DNA from: Polynucleobacter sp. AP-Melu-500A-A1
GTDB lineage: Bacteria > Pseudomonadota > Gammaproteobacteria > Burkholderiales > Burkholderiaceae
NCBI RefSeq assembly: GCF_018882125.1
Contig: NZ_JACVOZ010000001.1
Location: 248,001-312,000 of the forward strand
Length of the DNA stretch: 64,000 nt
Reading direction: 5' to 3'
In this document: piece by piece, positions 2,849-17,165 of the stretch
Layout of the letters: the number at the start of each line of letters is the position of its first letter
How positions within the stretch are numbered: position 1 is the first letter of the stretch
Position numbers and translations under genes: made by a program
The notes under the pieces: model-generated
Told to the model about the DNA's origin: nothing
The model's database searches: none
What the model saw: only the letters and a program-made list of their open reading frames with translations

Positions 2849-2949
2849 ACACCAAACCTTTTAGGGTTTAGGGTTATCGCTATATAAAGCAAGCCCATCT
2901 TGCGGTATCCTCAATGTCTTGCCCCAAACAAGGGACAGAGGGTACGAGA

Positions 2950-3711
2950 TTGCAAGAAACAATATTAAAAACCATTGGGCTAGGGAAATCTTTTAAAGGT
3001 TTCTCTGCAGTAAGTGATGTTAATTTAGACGTCACCAGGGGAACCATTCATGCATTGATTGGGCCCAACGGCGCCGGCAAAACCACCTGTTTCAATCTTC
3101 TGACAAAATTTCTTGAACCATCAAACGGACAAATTCTATTTAATGGTTTTGATATTACAAAAGAGGCGCCCGCACAGATTGCGCGACGTGGAATTATTCG
3201 CTCTTTTCAGATTTCAGCAGTTTTCCCCCATTTAACAGTTTTAGAAAATGTTCGTGTTGCACTGCAGCGAGAGTTGGGCACAGAGTTTCATTTTTGGAAA
3301 TCTGGTGAATCCCTCAAGGTTCTAAATGGGCGCGCCATGGAGCTTCTTCATGAGGTTGGTTTGGAAGAATTTGCCCACGAACAAACTTTAAATCTAGCGT
3401 ATGGCCGAAAGCGAGCATTGGAAATTGCAACTACCTTAGCAATGGAGCCAGAGCTAATGCTTTTAGATGAGCCTACGCAGGGCATGGGGCATGAGGATGT
3501 AGAGCGTGTAACGGAGCTAATTGACCGCGTCGCTAAAGGCCGCACTATTTTAATGGTTGAGCACAATATGAAGGTGGTGGCCTCTATTGCTGATCGGATT
3601 ACCGTACTCCAACGTGGGGCGGTTTTAGCAGAGGGCTCCTATCAAGAGGTTTCTAAAAACCCATTAGTGGTCGAGGCATATATGGGCAGCCATGGAGGCG
3701 ACGCTTTATGA
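2950..3711 (+). CDS. ABC transporter ATP-binding protein, LivG type
   Basis: First ATPase of a branched-chain-amino-acid-type (HAAT) importer, energising uptake through the two permeases downstream. Starting at TTG 2950 it is 253 aa. Walker A GPNGAGKTT is at about 38-46, the signature is the LivG-like LAYGRKRALEIA rather than LSGGQ, Walker B is LMLLDEPTQGM, and the switch is MVEHNM. I prefer TTG 2950 over ATG 2914 because GAGGG at 2938-2942 sits 7 bases before it, while the ATG lacks a Shine-Dalgarno sequence; the upstream start would add 12 residues. Overlaps the next ATPase by 4 bases (ATGA), implying coupled translation. Confidence 0.9.
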   Translation: MQETILKTIGLGKSFKGFSAVSDVNLDVTRGTIHALIGPNGAGKTTCFNLLTKFLEPSNGQILFNGFDITKEAPAQIARRGIIRSFQISAVFPHLTVLENVRVALQRELGTEFHFWKSGESLKVLNGRAMELLHEVGLEEFAHEQTLNLAYGRKRALEIATTLAMEPELMLLDEPTQGMGHEDVERVTELIDRVAKGRTILMVEHNMKVVASIADRITVLQRGAVLAEGSYQEVSKNPLVVEAYMGSHGGDAL

Positions 3712-4412
3712 GCGACATGGCGCTAGAGGTTAAAAATTTAGAGTCTTGGTATGGGGAGTCTCATATTTTGCATGGCCTAAACTTTGCAGTGCGCGATGGC
3801 GAGGTTGTGACTCTTTTGGGCAGAAATGGTGCTGGCAGAAGTACCATGCTTAAAACTATTTTAGGTCTGACTAGCAAACGAACAGGCTCTATCCGTGTTT
3901 TTGGTAACGAGACTATTAATTTACCAACTTATCAAATTGCACGCCTGGGGATTGGCTATTGCCCAGAGGAAAGAGGTATTTTTGGTAGCCTAGATGCTCA
4001 AGAAAACCTCCTGCTTCCTCCAAAAATTTCTTCTGGTGGCATGGAATTAGAAGAAATTTACGAGATGTTCCCCAACCTTTATGAAAGAAGAAATAGTCCC
4101 GGCACCAGGCTTTCTGGCGGCGAGCAGCAAATGTTGGCGATGGCGAGGATTTTAAGAACTGGCGCCAAACTTTTGCTGTTAGATGAGATCACCGAAGGGC
4201 TTGCGCCTGTGATTGTTGAAAAACTTGGCGAGGTTGTTTCTAAATTAAGAAACAGGGGCTTTACGATTGTGCTGGTGGAGCAAAACTTTAGATTTGCAGC
4301 TGAGCTTGCGGACAGACATTATGTGGTTGAAAGCGGTTTGATAGTCGAGGTGGTGGAACGTGCAGACTTAAAGGCGAAGGCCGAAGTCTTAAATGGTTTT
4401 TTGGGCGTTTAG
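3708..4412 (+). CDS. ABC transporter ATP-binding protein, LivF type
   Basis: Second ATPase of the importer, 234 aa. Signature LSGGEQQMLAMARIL, Walker B LLLLDEITEGLAP and the LivF-type switch VEQNF (Gln for His) are all present. The P-loop reads GRNGAGRST at 38-46, so the usually invariant Walker A lysine is Arg44. From memory, Arg here also occurs in some betaproteobacterial LivF homologues, so this may be a subfamily trait rather than damage. The start ATG overlaps the stop of the LivG-type gene. A 28-base gap with an AAGGAAAA ribosome site leads to the binding-protein gene. Confidence 0.9.
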   Translation: MSDMALEVKNLESWYGESHILHGLNFAVRDGEVVTLLGRNGAGRSTMLKTILGLTSKRTGSIRVFGNETINLPTYQIARLGIGYCPEERGIFGSLDAQENLLLPPKISSGGMELEEIYEMFPNLYERRNSPGTRLSGGEQQMLAMARILRTGAKLLLLDEITEGLAPVIVEKLGEVVSKLRNRGFTIVLVEQNFRFAAELADRHYVVESGLIVEVVERADLKAKAEVLNGFLGV

Positions 4413-4440
4413 TTGAGTATTTACTTTTAAAGGAAAAATA

Positions 4441-5637
4441 ATGAAACGGACTTTAATTTCTATGGCAGTAGTGGCTTTAGCCGCAGCCTCTAGTAGTGCA
4501 AATGCAGCCGATCCAACTGCCGTAAAGATCGGTTTTATTACCGATGTCTCGGGCCTATATTCAGACATTGATGGTCAGGGTGGCTTGGAGTCAATCAAAA
4601 TGGCTATTGCCGACTTTGGTGGCAGTGTTTTAGGTAAAAAAATTGAAATAGTTTCTGCAGACCACCAAAACAAAGCAGATATCGCAGCATCAAAAACCAG
4701 AGAGTGGATTGACCAAGATGGCGTAAGCGTTATTTTTGGTGGAACCAATTCTGGAACTGCTTTGGCAACTTCAAAAGTGGCTGCAGAGAAAAAACGAATC
4801 TACATTAATAATGGAGCAGGAACTTCCGCGTTAACGAATGAGCAGTGCACCCCCTACACCATTCACTACACCTATGACACGGTTGCCTTGGCATACGGCT
4901 CAGCTAGAGGGATGATGAATAAGGGCTTAAAGACTTGGTATTTTTTAACAGCTGACTACGCTTTTGGATATGCCCTTGAGAAAGACGCAACGAATGATAT
5001 TAACGCCCTTGGTGGAAAGGTTTTGGGGACATCTAAGCATCCATTAAATGCTAGCGATTTTTCATCTTATTTATTGCAGGCGCAGGCCTCAAAAGCACAG
5101 GTCTTGGGTTTGGCTAATGCAGGTGGCGACACAATTAATTCCGTTAAGGCTGCCAATGAGTTTGGTATTACCAAAACCATGAGGATTGCTGGTTTATTGG
5201 TATTCATTACCGATGTGCACGCAATTGGCATCCAAAATGCACAAGGCCTACTGGCTACCGAGGCCTGGTATTGGGATCAAAATGACCAAACTCGTAAGTT
5301 TGCAAAACGTTTCTTTGAAAAAATGAAACGCATGCCAACCATGGTTCAAGCAGGAAATTATTCATCCACGATGACGTATTTGAATGCTGTTAAAGCTGCT
5401 GGCACTAGTGATTCAGACAAGGTGATGCAGCAAATGCGCAAGGTCAAAATTAACGACATGTTTACAAAAAATGGCTATATCCGCAAAGATGGAACCATGG
5501 TCCATGACATGTATCTGTATGAAGTTAAAACACCAAGCGAAGTTAAAAGCCCATGGGATTACTACAAGCTAGTTGCGACCATTCCGGGTGACAAGGCATT
5601 TGCTCCAGAGTCTTATTCTCAGTGCAGCATTAAGTAA
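4441..5637 (+). CDS. ABC transporter periplasmic substrate-binding protein, HAAT type
   Basis: 398 aa precursor. A signal peptide (KR, hydrophobic stretch, cleavage after ANA near residue 23) directs it to the periplasm. The mature part is a type I periplasmic binding protein of the Leu/Ile/Val, urea and aromatic-acid group: it opens VKIGFITDVSGLYSDIDG and has the FGGTNSGTALATSKVA region of the ligand cleft. Two cysteines (NEQC near 139 and SQCSIK at the C-terminus) could form a disulfide. It lies between the ATPase pair and the permease pair of one operon. The ligand cannot be read from sequence; a carboxylic or aromatic acid is as likely as a branched-chain amino acid. Confidence 0.9.
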   Translation: MKRTLISMAVVALAAASSSANAADPTAVKIGFITDVSGLYSDIDGQGGLESIKMAIADFGGSVLGKKIEIVSADHQNKADIAASKTREWIDQDGVSVIFGGTNSGTALATSKVAAEKKRIYINNGAGTSALTNEQCTPYTIHYTYDTVALAYGSARGMMNKGLKTWYFLTADYAFGYALEKDATNDINALGGKVLGTSKHPLNASDFSSYLLQAQASKAQVLGLANAGGDTINSVKAANEFGITKTMRIAGLLVFITDVHAIGIQNAQGLLATEAWYWDQNDQTRKFAKRFFEKMKRMPTMVQAGNYSSTMTYLNAVKAAGTSDSDKVMQQMRKVKINDMFTKNGYIRKDGTMVHDMYLYEVKTPSEVKSPWDYYKLVATIPGDKAFAPESYSQCSIK

Positions 5638-5639
5638 TT

Positions 5640-6524
5640 TTGGAAATCTTCGGCCTTTCTATTTCTGCTTTGTTAAGCCAGCTCCTTTTGGGGCTGGTTA
5701 ACGGCAGTTTTTATGCAATCCTGAGTTTAGGGTTGGCAGTGATATTTGGCCTTTTAAATGTGATTAACTTTTCACATGGCGCCATGTTTATGTTGGGCGC
5801 CATTGTGACTTGGATGGCTGGACAATATTTTGGAATTAATTATTGGGTGATGTTGTTGCTGGCGCCGATCATTGTTGGCCTTGTTGGCGTTTTAATTGAG
5901 CGTTTATTGCTCAGGCATTTATATAAACTCGATCATTTATATGGACTGTTATTGACTTTTGGTTTAACGCTATTTATCGAGGGCGTACTGCGCTCCATTT
6001 ATGGCGCTTCTGGGTTATCTTATAGCGCTCCCGAGGCTTTGCGCGGAGCTACTGATTTGGGCTTTATGGTGTTGCCAAACTACCGTGCATGGGTTGTGGT
6101 TTCTTCTCTAACAGTGTGTTTTGCCACTTGGTACGTGATAGAAAAAACCAGTATTGGAGCCTATTTACGCGCCGGTACAGAAAACCCAAAACTGGTTCAA
6201 GCATTTGGAGTGAACTTTCCGTTGATGACAACCTTAACCTATGGATTTGGTGTGGCGCTAGCCGCTTTCTCGGGCGTGCTAGCTGCGCCGATCATTCAGG
6301 TTTCACCGCTAATGGGTTCTAACCTCATCATTATTGTTTTTGCTGTGGTGGTGATTGGCGGCATGGGATCTATCATGGGCTCAATAGTCACCGGCCTAGG
6401 ATTGGGATTGGTTGAGGGCCTGACTAAGGTATTTTATCCAGAAGCATCAAGTACTGTGGTGTTTGCGATCATGGTGATTGTTTTGCTCTTTAGGCCAGCA
6501 GGCCTTTTTGGGCGGGAAAAATGA
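5640..6524 (+). CDS. ABC transporter permease, LivH type
   Basis: 294 aa inner-membrane permease with about eight hydrophobic segments. The N-terminal run NGSFYAILSLGLAVIFGLLN followed by VINFSHGAMFMLGA is typical of LivH. The gene appears to start at TTG 5640, two bases after the binding-protein stop, with no clear ribosome site, so translation is probably coupled; the next Met in frame would remove conserved sequence. The C-terminus LLFRPAGLFGREK is the usual family ending. Overlaps the LivM-type gene by 4 bases. Confidence 0.88.
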   Translation: MEIFGLSISALLSQLLLGLVNGSFYAILSLGLAVIFGLLNVINFSHGAMFMLGAIVTWMAGQYFGINYWVMLLLAPIIVGLVGVLIERLLLRHLYKLDHLYGLLLTFGLTLFIEGVLRSIYGASGLSYSAPEALRGATDLGFMVLPNYRAWVVVSSLTVCFATWYVIEKTSIGAYLRAGTENPKLVQAFGVNFPLMTTLTYGFGVALAAFSGVLAAPIIQVSPLMGSNLIIIVFAVVVIGGMGSIMGSIVTGLGLGLVEGLTKVFYPEASSTVVFAIMVIVLLFRPAGLFGREK

Positions 6525-7480
6525 AATCACTTAAATTCTGGCTTTTTCTAGCTGTTTTTGTTGTCGCAATTGCGGCGCCATTCTTTGCCTATCCGATTTT
6601 TTTAATGAAAATTTTATGCTTTGCTCTTTTTGCAGCAGCATTTAATTTATTGCTGGGATATACCGGCCTTCTTTCTTTTGGCCATGCCGCCTTTTTTGGT
6701 GGCGCGGGATATTGTGCAGGCTATTTGATGCGCGACATGGGAGCGGGACCCGCGCTTGGTATAGCGCTGGGGGTCATATTTGCTGCTGCCTTGGGCGCGC
6801 TGATTGGTGGCTTGGCGATTCGCCGTCAAGGGATTTATTTTTCAATGATTACCCTTGCTTTGGCACAGATGTTTTACTTTATATGCCTACAAGCTCCAGC
6901 CTCTGGTGGGGAAGATGGTTTTCAGGGCATTCCGAGAGGTGTGTTGTTTGGCTTTATCAACTTACAAAATGATTTAAATCTCTACTATTTTGTTTTAGTT
7001 CTTGTGCTTGCTGGATTTTTATTTATTGCCAGAGTCATCACTTCTCCATTTGGACAGGTATTAAAAGCCATTAAAGAAAATGAGCCTCGCGCAATATCTT
7101 TGGGCTATAACGTTAATCGTTTTAAGTTTTTAGTATTTATTTTGTCTGCTGCACTTGCTGGCTTGGCGGGCAGTGCTCAAGCGCTAGTTTTGGGTTTTGA
7201 GACCCTCACCGATGTTCATTGGAGCATGTCAGGCCTAGTCATATTAATGACCCTTGTGGGCGGGGTTGGTACTTTGGCGGGCCCTTTTGTGGGAGCCTTG
7301 GTAATCGTTTTGCTTGAACACAGGGTAGGTGAGATTGGAAACTTCTTGGCTCAAATTACTGGAGTGACTTGGTTTAACTCTTTAGGTGAGTCAGTCACCA
7401 TCGTTACGGGCTTGATATTTGTTTTCTGCGTAATGGCTTTTCGCCGCGGCTTGGTTGGGATCTTTACTAAAAAGCAGTAA
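6521..7480 (+). CDS. ABC transporter permease, LivM type
   Basis: 319 aa second permease of the importer, with about nine hydrophobic segments. The family signature LLGYTGLLSFGHAAFFGGAGY is split across residues 44-64, and the conserved region with IKENEPRAISLGYNV occurs mid-protein. It closes the five-gene operon. Its stop codon is one base from the stop of the convergent kinase gene, so there is no room for a terminator outside coding sequence. The arrangement ATPase-ATPase-binding protein-permease-permease is complete, so the importer should be functional. Confidence 0.9.
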   Translation: MKSLKFWLFLAVFVVAIAAPFFAYPIFLMKILCFALFAAAFNLLLGYTGLLSFGHAAFFGGAGYCAGYLMRDMGAGPALGIALGVIFAAALGALIGGLAIRRQGIYFSMITLALAQMFYFICLQAPASGGEDGFQGIPRGVLFGFINLQNDLNLYYFVLVLVLAGFLFIARVITSPFGQVLKAIKENEPRAISLGYNVNRFKFLVFILSAALAGLAGSAQALVLGFETLTDVHWSMSGLVILMTLVGGVGTLAGPFVGALVIVLLEHRVGEIGNFLAQITGVTWFNSLGESVTIVTGLIFVFCVMAFRRGLVGIFTKKQ

Positions 7481-7481
7481 A

Positions 7482-8489
7482 TTACTGTTGAGCACAAGCC
7501 CAACCTAGATCAGCAAGCGCCCCCGATTTTGTTCCGTTTTCAATTGCATCGCTTGCATTGGCATTGCCATCCATCGCGCGTTTGGTAATGCCATGCAAAA
7601 TCGCTGAAATTCGGAATAAGTTGTAAGCCATGAGGAAGGGCCAGTGCTCTGATATTGAGCGCCCAATTCGTTTTTCGTATAAGGCAATATATTCAGCTTC
7701 ACTAGGAATTCCTAAGGTGGCGAGGTCTAGTCCTTGTATCCCACGCCAAAGGGTGGGCGCAATTCTCCAAGCCATGCATTGATATGCAAAATCTGCCAAA
7801 GGATTGCCAAGGGTAGAAAGCTCCCAATCTAAAACCCCAATGATGCGAAAATCCGTTTCGTGAAAGATAAGGTTGTCCATGCGAAAGTCACCATGGATTA
7901 GTGAAGTTGTATCTTCTGCTGGAATATGCTCAGGCAACCAGTTCATCAACTTATGAAGAGAATCAGGAATGGCAATATTGGCTTCACGCACTTGTCTAGA
8001 CCAGCGCGTTATTTGCCGCGAAAAATAATTACCAGGCTTACCAAAGGTTTCTAATCCAAGCGATACATAATCTAATCCATGTATTGCAGAGATAGTCTGA
8101 TTCATTTGCTCATAAATCTGATAGCGCTCGCGAGGTAGAAGGCCTGGCAAAGATTGGTCTACGAAGACCCGCCCATCAAGATATTCCATAATGAAAAAGG
8201 CCGTTCCAATAATGCTTTCATCTTCACAATAAGCCAGCATTTTGGGGACAGGAACATCTGTACTAGCTAGCGCTTTCATGACGCGATGCTCTCGATCAAC
8301 CGCATGCGCTGATGGCAATAAAATACCGCCCGGTTTTTTTCTGAGCACGTAATGCGAGTTGCCATTACTAATTTTGAATGTTGGGTTAGATTGGCCGCCA
8401 GTTAATTGGTTAAGCTCTATCGGACCCTTGGTCAGCCCCAATGCATTTAAGTACTCAGCAAGCGCTTGTTGAAAAGAGAGGGCTTGCAT
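7482..8489 (-). CDS. APH-fold phosphotransferase (ACAD10/11- and LvaA-like kinase)
   Basis: 335 aa from ATG 8489; an ATG at 8531 would add 14 residues and overlap the upstream gene by 29 bases, and neither start has a strong ribosome site. It has the aminoglycoside-phosphotransferase kinase fold: nucleotide loop GGQSNPTF (31-38), catalytic loop HGDFRMDN (189-196, base Asp191), and the Mg-binding DWE (Asp211) followed by STLGNPLADFAY. This subfamily is fused to or clustered with acyl-CoA dehydrogenases (human ACAD10/11) and includes Pseudomonas LvaA, which phosphorylates 4-hydroxyacyl-CoA. The neighbours here are exactly such a dehydrogenase and an SDR, so an acyl-CoA substrate is more likely than an antibiotic (inference). 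Confidence 0.85.
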   Translation of the reverse strand: MQALSFQQALAEYLNALGLTKGPIELNQLTGGQSNPTFKISNGNSHYVLRKKPGGILLPSAHAVDREHRVMKALASTDVPVPKMLAYCEDESIIGTAFFIMEYLDGRVFVDQSLPGLLPRERYQIYEQMNQTISAIHGLDYVSLGLETFGKPGNYFSRQITRWSRQVREANIAIPDSLHKLMNWLPEHIPAEDTTSLIHGDFRMDNLIFHETDFRIIGVLDWELSTLGNPLADFAYQCMAWRIAPTLWRGIQGLDLATLGIPSEAEYIALYEKRIGRSISEHWPFLMAYNLFRISAILHGITKRAMDGNANASDAIENGTKSGALADLGWACAQQ

Positions 8490-8502
8490 AGTCGATTTGT
8501 AT

Positions 8503-9273
8503 TTATAAGCCGTTGATGAGGTGGCCGCCATCTACCGCAATAGTTGCCCCGGTCATTGCATTGCTGGCTTCAGAGGCTAAGAGCAATAATGGCCCATTCA
8601 AGTCTTCTAGATTATTGAAGCGCCTTGAAGGTATACGTGCAAGAATTTTTTGTCCTGCCTCACTTAGTAGAAAGTCGCGATTGAGATCGGTAATGACATA
8701 ACCGGGTAATAACGCGTTGACACGAATTTGGTGGCGCGCAAGCTCTAGTGCCATGACTTTGGTGCTTTGGATTACCCCTGCCTTAGAGATGACATAGGGG
8801 GCAACACCACCAATAACGCGCTCCCCCAAAATAGAGGAAATATTGACAATATTGCCAGGCGTATTAGTGGCAACTAAGCGTCGTGCAGCCTCGGTTGCAA
8901 CCAGCCATGAACCCTTTAAGTTGGTATCAATTACACGATCCCAGTCTTCCTCGGTTTGATCAAGCAACTTGCTATTAATACTCATGCCCGCGTTGTTAAT
9001 AACAATGGTTGGCAAAGACCATGTCATCATTTCATCGAAACACTTCACTACGCTTTTTTTGTTCGTGACGTCTAATTCAAATGCCTTTGCTTGGCCGCCC
9101 AATAGGGTGATTTCATCTACAACAGACTGTAGTTGCTCTATGCGGCGTGATGCAAGGGCTACTTTTGCACCTGTTTGAGCCAGTAGCATGGCGCAGTGCT
9201 TGCCAATTCCACTAGAGGCGCCGGTAATAAAGACTGTTTTGTTATCCAAGCGAAACAGCTGATTAATATCCAT
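8503..9273 (-). CDS. SDR family NAD(P)-dependent oxidoreductase
   Basis: 256 aa classical short-chain dehydrogenase. Cofactor motif TGASSGIG (17-24), NNAG (93-96), catalytic Ser146/147, Tyr160 and Lys164 (YVISK), and a C-terminus ending in TGATIAVDGGHLING. The basic ASRR at 41-44 after beta-2 suggests NADP(H) preference (inference). Its start overlaps the dehydrogenase stop by one base (TAATG on the minus strand) and the kinase follows, so the three form one operon. In a 4-keto/4-hydroxyacyl-CoA route it would interconvert the keto and hydroxy forms; a general 3-oxoacyl reductase is the alternative. Confidence 0.9.
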   Translation of the reverse strand: MDINQLFRLDNKTVFITGASSGIGKHCAMLLAQTGAKVALASRRIEQLQSVVDEITLLGGQAKAFELDVTNKKSVVKCFDEMMTWSLPTIVINNAGMSINSKLLDQTEEDWDRVIDTNLKGSWLVATEAARRLVATNTPGNIVNISSILGERVIGGVAPYVISKAGVIQSTKVMALELARHQIRVNALLPGYVITDLNRDFLLSEAGQKILARIPSRRFNNLEDLNGPLLLLASEASNAMTGATIAVDGGHLINGL

Positions 9274-10442
9274 TACTTGAGTTCTTTGTTTGCAATAATT
9301 TTGCGCGCCATACTCCAGCGGTGTACCTCGTTTGGCCCATCATAAATTCGGAAGCCACGCATATCTTTAAAAATTTTCATGAGTACAGTTTCGCCAGTGA
9401 CTCCTTGGCCGCCTAAAATTTGTACGCAGCGATCAATGACTCGCCACTCAGCTTCGGAGCAAATTACTTTGGCACGGCTTGATTCAAAATTACAAGACTG
9501 CCCTTGATCTAAAAGCCATGCTGTATGCCAAATATTTAACCGAGAGGTTTGTAAATCTATATCGTTATCTGCCAACATGAACCCAGTGCCTTCATGCTCA
9601 CCCAAAACTTTCCCAAAGGCTTCTCTTTTACTTGCGTAGGCAACCGCAATATCGTGCGCGCGTTGTGCTTGACCAAGCCAGCGCATGCAATGGGTTAGTC
9701 GAGCCGGCGCTAGACGTATCTGTGCATTCTTAAATCCTTTGCCTAGCTGGCCCAGTATCTGTTTGGAGGATACGCGCAGCTTAGTAAACTCCAGAACGCC
9801 ATGCCCGCCAGTAAAGCAACTATCCATTGCATCCATATTACGAATCAGCTTTATCCCGGGATCCATCATGTCTGAGAGAAACATAGTTGCAGACCCGTCT
9901 TCACCGCGCGCCATGATGATTACAAAATCAGCGCCATTGGCCCCAGTAATAAACCATTTGCTGCCATTGATAAGATAGTCTTCACCATCTTTGGTGGCAG
10001 TTGTCATGAGCATTGAAGGATCGGAGCCAGCGCCAGGAGCAGGCTCTGTCATGGCAAAGCATGAGCGAATTTTTCCTGCAACTAGAGGCCGTAGCCAGCG
10101 CCCTTTTTGTTCTGGACTGCCAATGGCTTCTAGTAAATGAATATTGCCTTCATCAGGGGCATGAATATTCATCGCGGTCGGCCCCAAGGTGGAGTAGCCA
10201 GCTTCTTCAAAAACAATGGCTTTTTCTATATGGCTTAAACCTAATCCCCCCATTTCAATAGAGGCATGTGGCGTGAGTAAGCCTGCTTTACGTGCTAACT
10301 CAATTAACTCTCTACGTAGATCTTCCCCCGGGCCATGTTCGCTTTGCCGCGGGTCTTTTTCAAATGGGATGATTTGATCGCGTATAAATGACCGTGTCCG
10401 ATCCCGCAACTCTTCTAGTTTGGGCGTTAAAGAGAAGTCCAT
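9273..10442 (-). CDS. Acyl-CoA dehydrogenase family protein (ACAD10/11-like)
   Basis: 389 aa flavoprotein with the whole acyl-CoA dehydrogenase fold: N-terminal helical domain, CFAMTEPAPGAGSDP FAD/substrate strand (about 127-142), ITGANGADF, C-terminal helical domain with QILGGQGVTGE. The C-terminal catalytic segment reads YDGPNEVHR (367-375), with Asp368 where ordinary dehydrogenases have the catalytic Glu of YEG. From memory ACAD10/11 and LvaC have a similar DGPDEVH segment. That supports a role in removing a 4-phosphate or gamma-hydroxyl rather than plain dehydrogenation (inference). First gene of the minus-strand operon; divergent from the TSUP gene across about 100 bases. Confidence 0.88.
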   Translation of the reverse strand: MDFSLTPKLEELRDRTRSFIRDQIIPFEKDPRQSEHGPGEDLRRELIELARKAGLLTPHASIEMGGLGLSHIEKAIVFEEAGYSTLGPTAMNIHAPDEGNIHLLEAIGSPEQKGRWLRPLVAGKIRSCFAMTEPAPGAGSDPSMLMTTATKDGEDYLINGSKWFITGANGADFVIIMARGEDGSATMFLSDMMDPGIKLIRNMDAMDSCFTGGHGVLEFTKLRVSSKQILGQLGKGFKNAQIRLAPARLTHCMRWLGQAQRAHDIAVAYASKREAFGKVLGEHEGTGFMLADNDIDLQTSRLNIWHTAWLLDQGQSCNFESSRAKVICSEAEWRVIDRCVQILGGQGVTGETVLMKIFKDMRGFRIYDGPNEVHRWSMARKIIANKELK

Positions 10443-15772: not shown

Positions 15773-16243
15773 ATGAGTAAAAACGCATGGGACGAAATCG
15801 ATGAGGATTCCTTTAAAACCCTTAGCAAAGATGAAATGGACGCATTGCGTTCAGCAAAGCCACGTAACTTTGCTTCCATCAATTCGTGGTGGATAGTTTT
15901 AGCTCAGGTGGCGATTACCCTAATAATTGCCGGTGCCTGCTTCGTTTTTTCAGGTCAAGCCGATAAAAGCGTTTATACTTATTCGGCTTTAGTAGGCGGT
16001 TTGATTGGATTTTTGCCCTCCACGTTGTTTTTAATGCGCTTAGAGGCGGCAAGAAAGAGTGTCAAACGCAGCCCCGGCGGCTTTTTGGCGGCAATAGTAT
16101 CTGGCGAATTTATCAAAATCCTAGCCACTATCGTTTTGTTCATAGGCTTTGCTCTAAAGCAGCCTGATTTGAAATGGATCCCGTTGCTTGTTACTTATTT
16201 GGCTACGCTTAAATGTTATCTGTTGGCGTGGTTTTGGAAGTAG
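15773..16243 (+). CDS. atpI: ATP synthase subunit I (AtpI)
   Basis: 156 aa from ATG 15773 (a GTG at 15731 would add 14 residues and overlap the parB stop). Four hydrophobic segments after a cytoplasmic acidic N-terminus. GFLPSTLFLMRLEAARKS followed by GEFIKILATIVLF matches the AtpI family, which helps assemble the c-ring and is encoded at the head of atp operons. Position directly before atpB supports the call. The exact start is uncertain because no strong ribosome site is visible. Confidence 0.85.
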   Translation: MSKNAWDEIDEDSFKTLSKDEMDALRSAKPRNFASINSWWIVLAQVAITLIIAGACFVFSGQADKSVYTYSALVGGLIGFLPSTLFLMRLEAARKSVKRSPGGFLAAIVSGEFIKILATIVLFIGFALKQPDLKWIPLLVTYLATLKCYLLAWFWK

Positions 16244-16271
16244 CAAGAAGCAAATAAACAAGGACAAGTAA

Positions 16272-17165
<894 letters not shown>

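Follow-up and report, generated by a model that had tools for sequence, protein, structure and literature searches.

A Polynucleobacter operon predicted to admit 4-keto and 4-hydroxy acids to beta-oxidation, with an ACAD10/11-type kinase in the place of LvaA and LvaB

A predicted variant of the levulinate pathway

The window analyzed here is a 64,000-nt stretch (contig positions 248,001–312,000) of the 2.29 Mb genome of Polynucleobacter sp. AP-Melu-500A-A1. The analysis covered about its first 24 kb, and its positions 7482–10,442 carry three genes that encode an acyl-CoA dehydrogenase (ACAD; P0001), a short-chain dehydrogenase/reductase (SDR; P0002) and an APH-fold kinase (P0003). This operon very probably forms a variant of the lva (levulinate) pathway, an entry module that feeds 4-ketoacyl- and 4-hydroxyacyl-CoAs to beta-oxidation, and as judged from sequence its distinctive feature is an ACAD10/11-type kinase that stands in place of LvaA plus LvaB. 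A preliminary description of the stretch had proposed that the set catabolizes gamma-hydroxy or gamma-keto acids, and this proposal is supported at the sequence level by the lva relatives of the genes, the active-site residues of the ACAD, and the mutual exclusion of kinase types described below.

In the predicted route a CoA ligase encoded elsewhere would activate the acid, the SDR would reduce the 4-ketoacyl-CoA to a 4-hydroxyacyl-CoA, and the kinase would phosphorylate the 4-hydroxyl by means of the catalytic Asp of its HGDF motif. D368 of the ACAD would then take the C2 proton with a transient redox change of the FAD, R243, H251 and R254 would hold the 4-phosphate, and expulsion of the phosphate would leave a 2-enoyl-CoA. 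The individual reactions and the sequence in which they run are inferred from comparisons with better known relatives, and so is the short-chain nature of the substrate (levulinate or 4-hydroxyvalerate, for example).

Relationships and active site of the dehydrogenase

A P0001 search of genome contigs supplied the loci compared (L numbers are loci, G numbers genomes). The best 80 of 160 relatives, 72–91% identical, were tabulated together with the window itself and 22 further loci selected from the genus, from plasmids and from Pseudomonadaceae, 103 in total; the 100 that carry a P0001-type ACAD at at least 55% identity (all except L147, L148 and L182) are the loci counted here, with ORF starts assigned mechanically. 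The short genus loci L010–L038 and the loci of LvaA-type kinase matches in the Pseudomonadaceae scan stand outside this table. At a threshold of E 1e-40 that scan found LvaA-type kinases in 25 of 248 Pseudomonadaceae genomes (28 matches), and 12 of the neighborhoods were fetched. P0001 is 67–70% identical to the ACADs of 11 of these 12, which have the same motifs; the twelfth, L182, has no such gene.

Five of the 12 neighborhoods (L179, L181, L184, L185 and L188) contain an LvaR-like regulator, kinase, DUF6285 gene, ACAD, SDR, AMP ligase, DUF485 gene and acetate symporter, in L184 and L185 in what we take to be the gene order of P. putida KT2440. Between L181 and the S. stutzeri plasmid cluster the ACAD, SDR, kinase, regulator, ligase, DUF485 and symporter proteins are 78, 71, 58, 55, 34, 30 and 66% identical, respectively, and the values for the same genes of P. 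citronellolis and P. putida are 78, 67, 59, 52, 35, 31 and 64% (PMC6692424). Because these two series resemble one another we treat P0001 as LvaC-type, an assignment that runs through the ACADs of lva-ordered operons and not through the KT2440 LvaC sequence itself.

In a quick tree of 60 ACAD rows with classical ACADs as the outgroup (several of whose rows are long-branched), P0001, its orthologs and the lva-operon ACADs form one group (support 99). Support is 88 for the node that unites this group with the ACAD11 group and L148, and 97 (SH-aLRT) for the separation of these and L137 from the five classical rows. P0001 thus falls with the lva-operon ACADs; a grouping with ordinary ACADs, which the preliminary description had named as the outcome that would count against it, did not occur.

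Modeling of ACAD11 places R626, H634 and R637 in salt bridges to the 4-phosphate and makes D753 the catalytic base; substitutions of these residues abolish ACAD activity, those of R637 to Lys and of H597 having only partial effects (Rashan et al., PMC12440821). The equivalents in P0001 are R243 (R626), H251 (H634), R254 (R637), D368 (D753), H214 (H597) and R248 (R631), and none of the six varies across the 100 loci (101 rows, with the window present twice). Among five classical ACAD rows the equivalents of D368, R243 and H251 are found in none and Arg at 254 in one, and the general R248 is present in all five. The Asp that had been noted in place of Glu in the active segment is D368, which aligns with D753 of mouse ACAD11, and the earlier assignment of P0001 to the phospho-eliminating kind of ACAD agrees with its lva grouping, its catalytic Asp and its complete set of phosphate residues.

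In one genus ACAD (L137:5480–6631) two of the phosphate positions are occupied by His and Arg, the catalytic residue is Glu, and Trp stands where ACAD11 has R626; this protein is possibly an intermediate or a member of another substrate class.

Kinase type

In a structure-sequence search P0003 scores 404 bits to 3dxp, its best solved relative (which is labeled putative acyl-CoA dehydrogenase), and 244 bits to ACAD11; it is 39% identical to mouse ACAD11. It is 23–29% identical to LvaA-type kinases and lies on the opposite side of the split in a kinase tree made from 18 of the 57 ACAD11-type and 14 of the 22 LvaA-type loci. The two own-genome outgroup rows of that tree are unreliable (L003 was read in a wrong frame) and long branches meet in it, and it is used here for this two-group split and for residue counts in named rows. 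The comparison with LvaA/C/D and ACAD10/11 that had been suggested earlier has a divided result: the ACAD and SDR are of the LvaC and LvaD types, but the kinase is of the ACAD10/11 type and not of the LvaA type. Both kinase motifs previously described as intact, HGDFRMDN and DWE, are present in P0003.

Two Arg residues of the ACAD11 kinase, R176 and one beside the alpha-C Glu, have been placed at the CoA by modeling (PMC12440821; the latter is numbered 86 there and counted as 84 here, and was identified by its description). P0003 carries this pair as well as the equivalents of D220 and N225, the catalytic Asp and Asn. Both Args are present in 18 of 18 ACAD11-type operon kinases and in four of four unlinked ones, and in the LvaA-type rows Arg occupies the two positions in 0/14 and 1/14. 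No match to DUF6285, whose identification as the LvaB family rests on gene position and size, was found in any of 151 genus genomes, the genome under study included. Since the CoA-contacting Args are kept in the ACAD11-type kinases and missing from nearly all LvaA-type rows, it is conceivable, though less likely than not, that LvaB supplies CoA-substrate binding in trans to an LvaA that lost or never had these residues; the two kinase types would then be interchangeable solutions for one step, and the operon studied here the natural LvaB-free version.

Distribution and apparent exchange of kinases

The best 80 of the 160 P0001 relatives span Polynucleobacter, Alcaligenaceae, Comamonadaceae, Limnobacter and one Pseudomonas. 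Among the 100 loci the kinase nearby is ACAD11-type in 57, LvaA-type in 22, of both types in none and of neither type in 21. The order ACAD-SDR-kinase on one strand is kept in 56 of the 57 ACAD11-type loci (L116 differs), and because this amounts to 56 of 100 loci overall the three-gene set is not a chance association. A DUF6285 gene accompanies 21 of the 22 LvaA-type kinases by threshold and the remaining one (L181) at 45%, and it accompanies none of the 57 ACAD11-type kinases.

A more careful ACAD tree of 47 rows, from which 13 classical, long-branched or kinase-less rows of the quick tree were removed, places LvaA-paired rows of Limnobacter and Azoarcus within the Burkholderiales group (98/99) among rows paired with ACAD11-type kinases. 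It requires at least two changes of kinase type, in one direction or the other, and a single clade of all 16 LvaA-paired rows is rejected (p-AU 6.9e-12). Because the two kinase types never co-occur at these loci, have switched at least twice on the ACAD tree and cannot be gathered into one LvaA clade, they look interchangeable. Either kinase is found with ACAD-SDR pairs of one kind, so the role shared by the two would most simply be 4-hydroxyacyl-CoA phosphorylation. LvaA is cited as acting on 4-hydroxyvaleryl-CoA (PMC6692424). For the ACAD10 kinase, a relative from Burkholderia is reported to act on 4-hydroxyhexanoyl-CoA, and in vitro the kinase and ACAD domains of ACAD10 could be replaced by their Burkholderia relatives (Paquay et al., PMC11342911).

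Within the genus, 29 of the 151 genomes have an ACAD ortholog at at least 73% identity (fragmentary in G140); 26 of the 29 have the kinase as well, at no less than 60%. Three others have the kinase and no ACAD; in two of them, G001 and G061, the contig starts inside the SDR gene. Most of the genus sample is without the operon.

Several features of the LvaA-type loci are recorded here in their own right. In L179, L180, L181 and L188, which have the P. citronellolis organization, a DUF6285-like gene 42–47% identical to that of S. stutzeri lies between the kinase and a histidine phosphatase gene, although P. citronellolis LA18T is reported to have no lvaB homolog (PMC6692424); the ORF table of that paper skips two numbers at the corresponding spot. 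A histidine phosphatase gene is often found beside the LvaA-type kinase (L105:9406–10,089, L143:12,381–13,058, L146:8243–9004, L179–L181, L186, L188 and L189), and perhaps removes a dead-end phosphate; the S. stutzeri query, which also misses the Limnobacter ones, found none in the 57 ACAD11-type loci. In the Azospirillum B510 plasmid (L148:9372–12,712) histidine phosphatase annotations flank an IS21-type element beside DUF6285, as if one gene had been split. The Azotobacter salinestris plasmid (L149) has an LvaA-type kinase annotated twice under one protein accession (7266–8342 and 15,986–17,062), with transposases upstream of the first copy and a short hypothetical protein, not DUF6285, after the second.

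The reductase and the remainder of the pathway

The SDR is 52–55% identical to the SDRs in the LvaD position of lva-type operons and at most 35% identical to its paralogs in the same genome; LvaD of P. putida reduces levulinyl-CoA (PMC6692424). Six AMP-binding ligases are encoded in the genome. The ligase of the S. stutzeri lva cluster matches one of them (L198) at 51% identity, and the ligase near the operon in L094 matches it at 71%; the other five are at most 28% identical to the S. stutzeri protein. The gene for this LvaE-like ligase is unlinked, on another contig, where it is clustered with electron transfer flavoprotein subunits and a 595-amino-acid ACAD. Ten matches to the enoyl-CoA hydratase family are present in the genome.

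Operon layout and neighboring genes

The gene calls (Table 1) agree with the three-gene operon described earlier, in which the first two genes overlap by one base (9273) and a 13-base gap precedes the third. A kinase gene that began at the earliest ATG in frame (8531) would overlap the SDR gene; the ATG at 8489 gives the gap. The latter is the likelier start, if not a certain one, because many close orthologs align only from residue 12–14 onward in the genus genomes, and five of those that align upstream (G069, G135, G014, G121 and G011) have stops in the extension; the extension is free of stops in G026, G146 and more distant genomes such as G065. Pfam recovers all three folds, no NCBIfam model exceeds its cut-off for the ACAD or the kinase, and a promoter and terminator scan gave no more sites than shuffled sequences. 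The closest named relatives at the operon locus, by the P0001 search, are Polynucleobacter.

Table 1. Features of the operon and its neighbor, in window coordinates
Feature	Coordinates	Strand	Particulars
ACAD fold, LvaC-type (P0001)	9273..10442	-	389 aa; motif FRIYDGPNEVHR; Pfam fold
SDR, LvaD-type (P0002)	8503..9273	-	256 aa; Pfam fold; likeness to LvaD-position SDRs
APH-fold kinase, ACAD10/11 type (P0003), predicted 4-hydroxyacyl-CoA kinase	7482..8489	-	335 aa from ATG 8489; HGDFRMDN, DWE
HAAT-type ABC transporter, convergent, candidate importer (weak link)	2914..7480	+	two ATPases, binding protein 4441–5637, two permeases

The convergent ABC system that had been noted beside the operon is of the HAAT type and stops one base short of the kinase gene. 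In 18 of the 100 loci, all of them in the ACAD11-kinase group, there is a transporter of this subfamily (convergent downstream in nine, same-strand downstream in three, upstream and divergent in six); among the 65 loci with 4 kb or more on either side the count is 12. Import of the operon substrate by this transporter would be plausible only, and weakly so, because the linked binding proteins of the same-strand and divergent arrangements show identities of about 50% (62% in L117) and are just as close to a second paralog in the Polynucleobacter genome studied here; a strict orthologous link to the transporter was therefore not established.

In a cluster of 12 loci (L053, L054, L056–L058 and others) the kinase gene is followed downstream by one that resembles 3-hydroxyaspartate aldolase and scores under the NCBIfam cut-off, and three of them (L053, L054 and L057) also have a polar amino-acid ABC transporter. 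These neighbors hint at lineage-specific substrates.

Alternative readings

Several observations weigh against the levulinate-type reading of the operon. Neither a ligase nor an LvaR-type regulator gene adjoins it; DUF485 and acetate symporter genes are likewise missing beside it, where the ORFs are other genes, and it is not a complete lva operon. Of the 21 loci with neither kinase type nearby, eight have less than 2.5 kb downstream, and the remaining 13 of 100 have at least 2.5 kb, so clustering of the set is not universal; in two of these 13, G042 and G099, the ACAD11-type kinase (46–50%) is unlinked. Two more of the 21, both from Hydrocarboniphaga (L114:4899–5990 and L118:4718–5992, the second being among the short-downstream loci), have a third kind of APH kinase, 29–30% identical to the ACAD11 kinase and with no DUF6285 gene, immediately upstream of their P0001-type ACAD. 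LvaC is stated to be 62% identical to ACAD10 and 56% to ACAD11 (PMC11342911), at odds with the present comparison, in which ACADs of lva operons are 32–35% identical to mouse ACAD11. P0001 itself is 34% identical both to mouse ACAD11 and to the MCAD-like (medium-chain ACAD) Thermus protein 1ukw, and in the structure-sequence search its 198.5 bits to 4hr3 and 196.1 to ACAD11 exceed the 181.2 to 1ukw by a small margin over ordinary ACADs. Finally, P. duraquae, P. yangtzensis and P. sinensis are reported not to assimilate levulinate (PMC5018217); the absence of these names from the best 80 of the 160 loci is consistent with that but uninformative, because most genus genomes sampled are without the operon.

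The strongest alternative keeps the phospho-elimination and changes the substrate, for instance to a 4-hydroxy acid with a longer or branched chain or a second carboxyl group, to a product of a gamma-lactone, or to a photoproduct of humic matter or lignin. This is a serious contender, if somewhat short of probable. The absence of an adjoining LvaR-type regulator or acetate symporter gene fits it, as do neighbors that vary by lineage (the aldolase-like gene and polar amino-acid ABC transporter above, the D-amino acid dehydrogenase and indolepyruvate oxidoreductase families, and TRAP transporters), and the genome of Pseudomonas citri (L064), which has this version of the operon and whose best LvaA-type kinase match is only 26% identical. 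Against it stand the closeness of both the ACAD and the SDR to their lva-operon counterparts and the LvaE-like ligase in the genome. A search for literature on 4-oxopentanoic acid, photochemical and dissolved organic matter together found none.

The SDR might instead act later, on a 3-hydroxyacyl-CoA, or on another carbonyl, the true substrate being a 4-hydroxy acid that needs no reduction. Function is not readable from an SDR sequence and none of the 25 NCBIfam models shown reaches its cut-off for P0002, but its likeness to the LvaD-position enzymes, one of which reduces the 4-keto substrate in P. putida, makes this improbable. That P0001 is an ordinary ACAD with SDR and kinase neighbors that are functionally unrelated to it, as its unremarkable HMMER scores to general ACAD families and equal identity to ACAD11 and the Thermus enzyme might suggest, is so improbable that it can be dismissed, given the Asp for Glu, the full phosphate set, the lva-operon relatives in the tree and the widely kept gene order.

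Comparison with known systems

Published work already covers ACAD10 and ACAD11, relatives of their kinase in bacteria, and the lva pathway. In the literature searched, which left most subscription papers outside, no description was found of an operon that joins LvaC/LvaD with an ACAD11-type kinase or of its exclusion of LvaA/LvaB, nor was the term DUF6285 found. The levulinate-type reading would tie a widespread Burkholderiales three-gene set, so far given generic family names only, to the phospho-elimination route; where the use of levulinate or gamma-valerolactone is to be engineered it would provide a single-protein kinase instead of LvaAB, and it makes the unexplained role of LvaB testable with kinases that have apparently already been swapped in nature.

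With the mammalian ACAD10 and ACAD11 proteins the operon shares the kinase type, with the same CoA-contacting Args and catalytic Asp and Asn, and the six ACAD active-site residues compared are identical in P0001 and ACAD11; the differences are that its proteins are separate polypeptides, that the ACAD is only 34% identical, and that an SDR is added. P0001 is not the bacterial ortholog of ACAD11. Other Polynucleobacter genomes (L129:6318–7535 with L130:5951–7009, and L135 with L136) have an ACAD that is 58–59% identical to mouse ACAD11 and 33–34% to P0001; the accompanying kinases are ACAD11-type and 48–50% identical to P0003, and the two genes are unlinked rather than in one operon. These pairs appear to be a second, separate version of the same predicted chemistry. 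With the lva system the operon shares the types of ACAD and SDR and the same predicted chemistry, but its kinase is of the other type and has no LvaB-family partner, and in place of the ligase, LvaR, DUF485 and acetate symporter genes a HAAT-type ABC transporter lies adjacent.

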